In this document: in pieces, positions 166-1,662 of the stretch
Position numbering within the stretch: the stretch's first letter is position 1
Layout: each line of letters begins with the position of its first letter
Assembly: GCA_025453435.1 (NCBI GenBank)
Contig: JALOQI010000010.1
Location: 1 to 10,399 of the forward strand
Reading direction: 5' to 3'
DNA length: 10,399 bases
Source of the DNA: Candidatus Omnitrophota bacterium
GTDB lineage: Bacteria; Omnitrophota; Koll11; Gygaellales; Profunditerraquicolaceae
Notes under the pieces: model-generated
Seen by the model: the letters and a program-made list of their open reading frames with translations, nothing else
What the model was told of the DNA's origin: nothing
The model's database searches: none
Translations under genes and position numbers: made by a program

Positions 166-1322
166 TCATTCAAGGCTGTTCGTTAAACAGGCCTGCGCAA
201 GTTTTTTCGCGCTCTCCCTGACAGTGCGCGCCTGCGTGCGGTAATCCACTTCTATCAAACCGAATCTGGGAACAAAGCCTTTGTCCCATTCGAAATTATC
301 CAACAGAGACCAGTAAGTATATCCTATAACTTTTGCGCCATTTTCTATGGCTTTATGCACCATGCTTAAATGGCCTCTTATAAATTCCCAACGCTGAGCA
401 TCATCGTCGGTGCAAATCCCGTTTTCGAGTATAAAGATCGGCAATTTATACCTGATAAGCGCCGTGAGCACATCATAAAGACCCTGCGGATAGATCTCCC
501 AGCCCATGGAATTCTTTTCCAGAGTATCATGATCCTGTAATAGTTCACGCCGATATAATCAAGGGATTTGTTCCTGGCAAGAACATCCAGAATATTAAAA
601 TCAACCAGGGCCTTGCGCAGAGATACGCTGAATTTGTCGCGCAGGCTGTTTGTGCACGCTACATAAGCTGGCATATGGTGAGCTATGCTGACACTGGGCG
701 CAGGGAGTTTTTTCTGACGGTAAAGGCTGTGTATCAGCCTGTGGCAGGCGATATGGCTGAGTATCATATTTTTTCTCACAGCCAGGGCTAGAGCCAGGGA
801 CCGCCGGTTAGGAGGCCAGGCCCCTAAGATATAACCGTAGAAAATATATATAAGAGGTTCGTTTATAGTTACCCAGTATGTTACATAAGGAGCTAATTCG
901 GATACTATTTGTTCTGCGTAAGCCAGGAACGATCTGACGGCTCTTTTATCCGACCAGCCTCCCATATCGGCGAACCACTGAGGGCTGGTGAAATGATGCA
1001 ATGTGACGACCGGCTCGATATTTCTCTGCCGAAGAGCCGCAACAACATCCTTATAATGGCTTATCGCCTCCGTGTCGAATTTACCCCGGGAAGGCTCTAT
1101 CCTGCACCATTCAACAGACAACCTGGCGCAATTATGCCCGATGGATTTAGCGAGGTCGAAATCTTCCTTATAGCGCTCATAATGCATGCAGGCAGGCCCT
1201 GATTTAACCCTCTGGGCCGATTCCTGCTCCCATTTCCACCAATCGCTGTTGATATTGCCGCCTTCTGCCTGGTGGGCGGAGAGCGACGCCCCCCAGAAGA
1301 ATCCATAGGGAAATTTCATCAT
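166..1322 (-). pseudogene. Beta-glycosidase, glycoside hydrolase family 1, interrupted by a one-base frameshift
   Basis: Seen: two frames make one GH1 protein. The upstream frame (to about 520) has FPYGFFWGASLSAHQAEGG at the start, TLHHFTSPQWF, the acid/base Glu in TINEP (about residue 154 from the ATG at 1319) and LDYIGVNYY. The downstream frame (from about 520 to 166) carries MGWEIYPQGLYD, the nucleophile Glu in FILENG, and YTYWSLLDNFEW and the aglycone-side end GFVPRFGLIEVDY. Restoring one G in TGG-AAAAG at 519-520 joins them as NYYRIMILW-EKNSMGWEIYP, about 385 residues, shorter than the usual 440-470, mainly between NYY and GWEIYP. Known: retaining hydrolysis of beta-glucosides/galactosides; no signal peptide, so cytosolic. 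Unshifted, the first frame runs on to 378 with unrelated sequence and lacks the nucleophile. Start ATG 1322 or 1319; no Shine-Dalgarno. It may be a recent pseudogene or an assembly error. Confidence 0.85.
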
Positions 1323-1329
1323 AGCCTGT

Positions 1330-1358
1330 ATTATACCACTGACAAAAAAAAATCCCAA
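1330..1358 (-). promoter_or_regulatory. Predicted extended -10 promoter of the GH1 gene
   Basis: Minus strand: TTGGGA (1358-1353) lies inside the terminator stem, then 17 bases, then TATAAT (1335-1330) preceded by TG one base before it (TGGTATAAT, an extended -10). Initiation near 1323 would fall at or just before the ATG at 1322/1319, so the mRNA would have almost no leader. Confidence 0.45.
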
Positions 1359-1382
1359 CATTTCTGTTGGGATTCGTTTTTT
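1343..1382 (-). terminator. Intrinsic terminator, usable in both directions
   Basis: A perfect 10-pair stem (1351-1360 with 1365-1374, AATCCCAACA) has a 4-base loop that reads GAAA on the minus strand. On the minus strand it is followed by a run of eight T (1350-1343); on the plus strand by CG and six T (1377-1382). It would end the structured RNA and insulate the GH1 gene from it. Confidence 0.92.
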
Positions 1383-1628
1383 ATAATCAGCCGATAAAGG
1401 CGCACTCCACCTTCATCACACTCGGCAACCCAGCCACCATATCGCGCGGCTACCCGCAGGCTCCGCGCCCCCGCACCCGGAAGCGCGCGCCCGAAGAAGG
1501 CGCAACGTAGGTCTGTGGCTTTGCCCCGCACTCACGTCTGCCAAGTAACGGGGTCCCGGACATGTCAGTTTTCGAGTCTGCTCGATCCGGGACGTCCCCC
1601 GATTTCTCGAGGTTTGCCTTTATCGGCT
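1343..1628 (-). ncRNA. Candidate stand-alone structured RNA, family not recognised
   Basis: Seen: 1616-1628 and 1389-1401 are perfect inverted repeats (13 pairs, AGCCGATAAAGGC) enclosing a GC-rich interior. Inside, 5' to 3' on the RNA: a 6-pair hairpin with a GAAA tetraloop (1612-1607 with 1602-1597); an 8-pair helix GTCCCGGA (1593-1586 with 1560-1553) stacked on a 5-pair hairpin (1585-1581 with 1576-1572) with an 11-base one-sided bulge at 1571-1561; a short CCCG helix (1552-1549 with 1528-1525); and a 6-pair AGCCAC/GTGGCT helix (1520-1515 with 1437-1432) around a very GC-rich arm. A strong promoter fires at the 5' end and an intrinsic terminator closes the 3' end: about 240 bases of core, 285 in all. 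I see no RNase P GAGGAAAGUCC, no tmRNA T-arm/CCA end and no SRP GGAAGGAAGCAGC-like loop. 6S RNA is possible but the multibranched layout argues against it. Alternative: an attenuator leader of the GH1 gene. Confidence 0.65.
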
Positions 1629-1634
1629 ATCATA

Positions 1635-1662
1635 AGTATAACACAGAACAGACGTTTTTCAA
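1635..1662 (-). promoter_or_regulatory. Strong predicted promoter of the structured RNA
   Basis: Minus strand: TTGAAA (1662-1657, five of six), a 16-base spacer, then TATACT (1640-1635, five of six). Initiation about 7 bases downstream falls at about 1628, exactly the first base of the 13-base repeat that closes the RNA. That coincidence is the main argument that an RNA gene starts here. Confidence 0.6.

Follow-up and report, generated by a model that had tools for sequence, protein, structure and literature searches.

A structured RNA upstream of a GH1 glycosidase gene

The window, a 10,399-nucleotide stretch of contig JALOQI010000010.1 from a Candidatus Omnitrophota bacterium, carries a structured RNA between a gene for a peptidoglycan-binding protein (PF01471) and a gene for a GH1 glycosidase (PF00232). 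The GH1 gene is read from the minus strand (378..1322, putative ATG at 1322), and its frame is broken near the 3′ part: it is split over 378-1322 and 166-507 of the minus strand, and the relative at L124 has one frame of 406 residues. The split is either an assembly error or a broken gene.

A first-pass annotation had proposed a strongly structured RNA on the minus strand from 1628 to 1343. Folding of 1634-1343 agreed with this (-139.9 kcal/mol, z -7.24), as none of 200 shuffled sequences reached so low an energy. The near-consensus promoter that the same annotation placed at the first base of a 13-pair closing helix was also recovered, as TTGAAA-16-TATACT on the minus strand (1635..1662, 10/12 consensus matches) with an extended -10 element (TG before the box). 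The predicted start, at about 1628, is the first base of the closing helix. Four promoter-like sites occur in 1 kb on both strands against 0.7 expected, and a similar promoter was found by script upstream of 18 of 19 GH1-linked RNAs, the window included.

The closing helix (1628-1616/1401-1389) comprises 13 Watson-Crick pairs, or 12 in a duplex prediction cut one base short. Its 5′ strand, AGCCGATAAAGGC (1616..1628, minus), includes residues G20-C22 of the aptamer described below, and its 3′ strand, GCCTTTATCGGCT (1389..1401, minus), has local pairing as an alternative. The RNA ends in a terminator hairpin, TCCCAACA-GAAA-TGTTGGGA, at 1375-1350, followed by a T-run (1344..1375 in all, minus), identified by the terminator scan and in relatives. 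The canonical 3′ terminator of the first-pass annotation is thus present, as are its multibranched interior and two GAAA loops, which cap P2 and the terminator in the fold. A 66-residue open reading frame at 1531-1331 overlaps the RNA; this stretch is accounted for by an RNA with covarying helices. A tRNA and tmRNA search returned none.

The RNA is a c-di-GMP-I aptamer

c-di-GMP-I RNAs form a much-studied riboswitch class. An Rfam scan of the whole window at curated cut-offs matched no family. When 421 bases were searched alone, c-di-GMP-I (GEMM-I, RF01051) was matched at 31.7 bits (E 1.7e-4), below the cut-off of 35 bits, and the alignment covered model positions 1-87, its full length. The alignment has excess sequence in two places, P2 (88 nt versus 19) and the tip of P3 (55 nt versus 3). 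Other Rfam classes in this search, at E up to 10, gave weak matches of 0.04 or worse. Three GH1-linked relatives with the insertion described below score above the RF01051 cut-off (L131, 35.9 bits; L141, 41.0 bits; L191, 43.5 bits), and three others (L124, L126 and L130) fall below it, like the window RNA.

The ligand contacts of the class are G20, A47, A48 and C92, according to the cited portions of the structural reports (PMC3764141, PMC4744006). In the RF01051 alignment G20, A47 and C92 are present at 1618, 1522 and 1425, respectively (1425 or 1424 for C92). In the solved structure, as given in the same portion of PMC3764141, C44 pairs with G83 of P3 and so links P2 and P3, and C22 and G45 are conserved P2 residues. 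Both C44 (C1594) and G83 (G1434) are intact in the window and able to pair. Along the minus strand, with residue names from that portion of PMC3764141, the RNA presents the aptamer core GGCAAACC (1611..1618; G20 at 1618, C22 at 1616), G42 A43 C44 (1594..1596) and GCAAAGCC (1517..1524), which holds G45 C46 A47 A48 A49 and the start of P3. The upper P2 hairpin, CCTCGA-GAAA-TCGGGG (1597..1612, minus), is seen in the fold and ends in a GAAA loop. P3 (1427..1520, minus; G83 at 1434) has a long distal extension with a receptor-like CCTACG/ATATGG, which we take to be one base off the CCTAAG/TATGG receptor. P3 is followed by GCC (1424..1426, minus), which holds the C92 contact and can pair alternatively.

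On this alignment, the contact residues and the relatives over the cut-off, we assign the minus strand from 1628 to 1343, by its sequence, to a known class: it is a c-di-GMP-I riboswitch aptamer, and c-di-GMP is its presumed ligand. GGDEF genes are found in 9/9 related genomes. The first-pass annotation had instead considered the RNA to be an unrecognised class. The empty result at the Rfam gathering cut-offs is the one point in favour of a large bacterial RNA that has no connection with riboswitches and forms a class of its own, but the sub-threshold match is a full-length c-di-GMP-I alignment with intact contact residues, and three relatives exceed the RF01051 cut-off. The idea of a new class is contradicted at the level of both sequence and structure, and we give it next to no weight.

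Two abutting hairpins are inserted between C44 and G45

The string GGGAC|GCAAAGCC of the ordinary aptamer is split at one point in the window by 69 nt (1593-1525). The insertion point lies exactly between C44 (1594) and G45 (1524), on the 3′ side of the P2 internal loop. The inserted bases form hairpin A (GTCCCGGA...TCCGGGAC, 1553..1593, minus) and hairpin B (CCCG...CGGG, 1525..1552, minus), both defined by the fold, the homologues and covariation, with 0 bases between them. When both hairpins are removed in thought, an ordinary aptamer is left. With the hairpins in place, the P2 loop should become a four-way junction in which A and B form an end-to-end helical stack. Because an additional GGCA/TGCC helix from RNAalifold competes with the established fold, we chose not to include it in the RNA model.

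We compared the inserts of relatives, collected as described in the next section. All 97 insert rows of alignment A5, which is fitted to the model, have C immediately 5′ of the insert, and 90 of the 97 continue with GCAAA after it. The spacing between A and B is 0 nt in 86 of 96 two-hairpin copies. The total insert length ranges from 32 to 110 nt and the sequence is variable. Compensatory changes in homologues, by which the first-pass annotation had proposed to judge the RNA, are found in the insert. In an alignment-free test, in which the first five bases were compared with the five before the split and the last five with the five after it, 90 of 97 distinct inserts reached 9-10 of 10 terminal pairs, as did 7.9% of dinucleotide shuffles; with Watson-Crick pairs only, the figures were 78/97 and 0.2%. 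At every one of the ten terminal pair positions, two or more further standard pair types occur. Helix B opens with a pyrimidine-purine pair in 93/97 inserts (75 C-G, 17 U-A, 1 U-G) and is unpaired at this position in the other four, a bias that is a sign of a junction constraint. Covariation was also evident in A3, a MAFFT alignment of seven sequences that is not structure-fitted: 98.9% of cells were paired, and the covariation score of 0.437 exceeded the shuffled value of 0.150 (0/500 shuffles as high) and all slid versions. Helix B is the weakest in A3, with a double change in 1/5 pairs.

The two-hairpin insertion at C44/G45 is a new structural variant of a known riboswitch. Our literature searches aimed at the insert, with limited coverage of subscription papers, found no description of it.

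Our first choice for the role of the insert is structural tuning, in which the hairpins only rigidify or space the P2 junction, for example for slower or tighter folding, and have no partner. The variable lengths and sequences of hairpins that are nevertheless clean and abutting, together with the pyrimidine-purine first pair of B, speak for this, and we give it an even chance. A second input is possible: the fixed position, the abutting helices and the strong conservation of pairing would also suit a second sensing or protein-binding domain that makes a two-input switch. Against such a domain, the apical loops of A and B lack mutual complementarity above that of permuted pairs, a shared loop sequence was not seen among the inserts, and the GH1-linked RNAs of several species have no insert at the same place, so that the insert is dispensable at that site. 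We consider a second domain improbable. Loop-loop kissing between A and B was rejected as a candidate, as the mean longest complement (1.63) gave no signal relative to permuted loops (1.68).

Distribution of the insert

We scanned GTDB genomes with a pattern that describes the aptamer with 48-78 nt at C44/G45. This matched 85 genomic stretches, and 3 more in viral contigs, and many of the matches are probably due to chance. A filter on P2 length and loop was passed by 39 matches, the window included, and only these were read individually; the two-hairpin insert was judged present in the window and at 11 genomic loci, ten of which carry an Omnitrophota or Omnitrophica label and one (L006) an Elusimicrobia label. 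The model R1 was built from seven of the twelve insert sequences (A3), because MAFFT misaligned helices A and B in L006, L019 and L076 (alignment A2).

At E 1e-3, R1 matched 294 of 384 genomes in the phylum to which G001, the source of the Omnitrophota locus L047, belongs. Since R1 also matches ordinary c-di-GMP-I aptamers, this is no count of inserts. We therefore re-searched 97 sources, mostly Omnitrophota, chosen as the best and longer R1 matches and thus a selected, non-random set. They gave 104 matches: 96 with two abutting hairpins, 7 without the insert, and one (L203) in which the insert ends are right and the minimum-energy fold is merged. Excluding the window, L003 and L006 from the 97 inserts leaves 94 copies in at least 68 of the 384 Omnitrophota-phylum genomes.

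In the phylum of G004, the Elusimicrobia-type genome of L006, 35 matches were listed from 198 genomes. Among the 20 loci classified there, the insert is present in two (L240 and L242, the latter being L006) and the remainder are ordinary or ambiguous (L254 and second matches in L238 and L246). The 198 genomes in the phylum of G608 (the source of L002, with the label Deltaproteobacteria) gave a list of 43 matches, and the 16 loci classified include two hairpins at the same point in 5 copies from 4 genomes (L311, L318, L319, L325 and L326). In these five, C21-G46 replaces G21-C46. The swap of this aptamer pair is read from GCCAAACC...GGAAAGCC, and L325 and L326 have large extra sequence in P3 as well. 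One further locus of that phylum, L323, has one hairpin at the insertion point, and the other classified loci look ordinary. No insert was seen among the 15 loci classified from the 199 genomes in the phylum of G613, the genome of L026 (labelled Peptococcaceae).

Two-hairpin copies are present in 48 fetched sources; RF01051 exceeds its cut-off in 17 of these and does not in the other 31. It is therefore likely that counts of the c-di-GMP regulon in these uncultured bacteria are too low.

Other elaborations of the aptamer were seen in these searches. At L070, two similar insert-bearing riboswitches lie about 2.2 kb apart in one genome (6101-6342 and 3881-4122, minus). L032 has two occurrences of the 3′ aptamer motif GCCGGGTTGCCG, one of them within the P3 extension, which possibly mark alternative folds. 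L321 consists of two aptamers in a row. Pattern matches from Bipolaricaulota and Oscillospiraceae were rejected as insert copies, as they retain GGGACGCAAAGC and resemble aptamers arranged in tandem or nested in one another. Apparent nested c-di-GMP-I aptamers are found at L010, L012, L018, L021, L035, L048, L065, L072, L079, L082 and L085, in records mostly labelled Bipolaricaulota or Acetothermia, with the inner aptamer in the tip of the outer P3. Their outer tip pairs vary together, for example TAGGC/GCCTA and TAAGC/GCTTA. In several (e.g. L021 and L072) the outer CCTAATGG and the CCATTAGGAGG that immediately precedes the start codon are complementary, a sequence match that suggests translation control.

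The aptamer at GH1 loci

A GH1 homologue is present in 70/79 genomes of the family of G001. R1 matched 19 of 30 fetched GH1 loci and 18 were counted as upstream neighbours, L290 being left out because its match lies at a distance of about 780 nt; a contig end truncates L272. Relatives with both the insert and a GH1 start downstream are L124, L126, L130, L131, L141 and L191. The same place upstream of GH1 is occupied by an ordinary aptamer in, for example, L271, L285, L291 and L295, and by an insert-bearing one in L270, L281, L284 and L296; the call was ambiguous at L283, L289, L297 and L298. At this one switch, the insert thus appears to have been either acquired or lost. Across 93 downstream frames, the Pfam matches were N-methylation (pilin-like) in 10, GH1 in 6, and GH113, GAF and response-regulator domains in 4 each.

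A promoter scan placed a promoter-like site for GH1, TTGGGA-17-TATAAT (1330..1358, minus), across the terminator of the RNA. At 19/30 loci the script found TATAAT upstream of the putative ATG of GH1, at a distance of 4-13 nt, and four more (L275, L276, L285 and L289) have the same layout by eye, the script having picked another box or ATG. The right arm of the terminator hairpin supplies TTGGGA, a fair -35 box. With this hairpin-borne -35 and a TATAAT close to the ATG, GH1 seems to own a near-leaderless promoter. Inspection by eye found no Shine-Dalgarno sequence before GH1. The TCCCAACA...TGTTGGGA hairpin was found by script at 19/30 GH1 loci, 13/18 with the RNA and 6/12 without it, and is therefore not simply the expression platform of the window RNA. 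This conserved palindrome with its T-run doubles as the GH1 -35 region (window 1375-1330; L270-L299), and it could be a protein operator too.

Competing helices suggest a switch

Because the closing helix uses the GGC of the core (G20-C22), the whole helix cannot coexist with the ligand-bound fold. Its 3′ strand takes part in a second competitor, a local hairpin GCCGA...TGAAGGTG/CGCCTTTA TCGGC (1390..1426, minus; -15.1 kcal/mol), which is exclusive with the closing helix and with a free C92. We compared 19 GH1-linked RNAs, leaving out L272 (cut), L290 (distant) and L297 and L298 (3′ strand not found). In 18/19 (not L271) there is a 5′ strand resembling GCCGATAAAGG whose partner, the 3′ strand CCTTTATCGG, lies beyond the aptamer, and in 18/19 (not L191) this 3′ strand can also pair locally with the aptamer end, covering at least part of the C92 stretch. 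In 8/19, a run of at least five U begins no more than two bases after the local hairpin. The conserved competition and these U-tracts look like a first terminator that is relieved by ligand. The window has no U-tract after its local hairpin.

We infer the ligand, the direction of switching and the effect on GH1 as follows. The transcript would start at about 1628. With c-di-GMP bound between G20 and C92, the 5′ strand GCCGATAAA should be kept paired with TTTATCGGC, the 3′ strand. In the ligand-free RNA, TCGGC could pair instead with GCCGA, the C92-bearing 3′ end of the aptamer, in the local hairpin; as this hairpin takes the C92 stretch, ligand binding and the local hairpin should exclude each other. 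The likeliest role would be cis control of GH1, by read-through or by interference with the overlapping promoter. In the window itself, the first U-tract is absent and only the second, apparently unregulated terminator is present, so most transcripts should end at about 1343. A search by eye for an antiterminator of this second terminator gave only weak 5-pair options; with no U-tract and no clear antiterminator, switching may not reach GH1 in the window.

A separate transcript for the window RNA is plausible, as nearly all GH1-linked relatives have the closing helix and a terminator frequently overlaps the GH1 promoter. The RNA could then be an autonomous short transcript, a c-di-GMP-binding sRNA or a ligand buffer, that merely neighbours GH1; its terminator would end it, and GH1 would be transcribed separately from the near-leaderless promoter. 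It has its own promoter and terminator, the near-leaderless layout of GH1 recurs at most loci by script or by eye, and the GH1 promoter and hairpin occur also where the RNA is missing. Yet many relatives keep the RNA upstream of GH1, and some other members have classical aptamer-made terminators directly before a gene. In L136, L152, L183 and L206 the terminator is built from the 3′ strand of the aptamer itself, which is the ordinary cis design. We regard the autonomous transcript as possible, at perhaps one chance in a few, and lean towards cis control of GH1. A composite account is markedly less probable: a module-built four-way-junction c-di-GMP-I aptamer in two, probably three phyla, whose GH1-linked form is an autonomous, self-terminated c-di-GMP-binding RNA that controls the near-leaderless GH1 promoter by interference or in trans, not by ordinary attenuation, with the module as a second input.

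Our main reading, to which we assign a probability of about 0.85, is that the RNA is a c-di-GMP-I aptamer with a two-hairpin insertion at C44/G45, whose likeliest role is cis control of GH1. The analysis shows the identity of the aptamer, by sequence and structure, as well as the insertion, its covariation, the competing helices and the conserved neighbourhood. The insert lies two bases from the ligand contact A47, and its occurrence in the Omnitrophota genomes and in genomes of two further phyla suggests that a four-way junction is tolerated, or used, by the pocket. As the GH1-linked RNAs at one and the same place include some that have the insert and some that lack it, they offer a natural experiment on its function.

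Comparison with known c-di-GMP-I systems

The window RNA shares with the RF01051 consensus G20, C22, C44, G45, A47-A49, G83 and C92, aligned end to end, as well as a GNRA-capped P2 and a receptor-like P3. It differs in the 69-nt insert at C44/G45, where the consensus has none, and in its long distal P3, the 13-pair helix that overlaps G20-C22 and its sub-cut-off score. The c-di-GMP-I-GGC family (RF03167) belongs to the same clan and has the same core. It matches three fetched sources without the insert (L320, L321 and L328), whereas the five Deltaproteobacteria-type insert copies fall below the cut-offs of both RF01051 and RF03167.

Bc1 of Bacillus thuringiensis has a long expression platform with two terminators, and a protein binds the terminator DNA; c-di-GMP unfolds the first terminator, and the second stays and masks the first, as stated in the excerpt cited (PMC11218506). 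It is a precedent for a switchable first terminator combined with a masking second one. The excerpt does not mention an insertion in the aptamer, and the second hairpin of the window differs in overlapping a promoter-like site of the next gene. The tandem c-di-GMP-I riboswitches (PMC9481103) are likewise elaborated aptamers of this class, but in the part of that report cited here the elaboration consists of two or three aptamers in a row, whereas the window RNA is a single aptamer with inserted hairpins.
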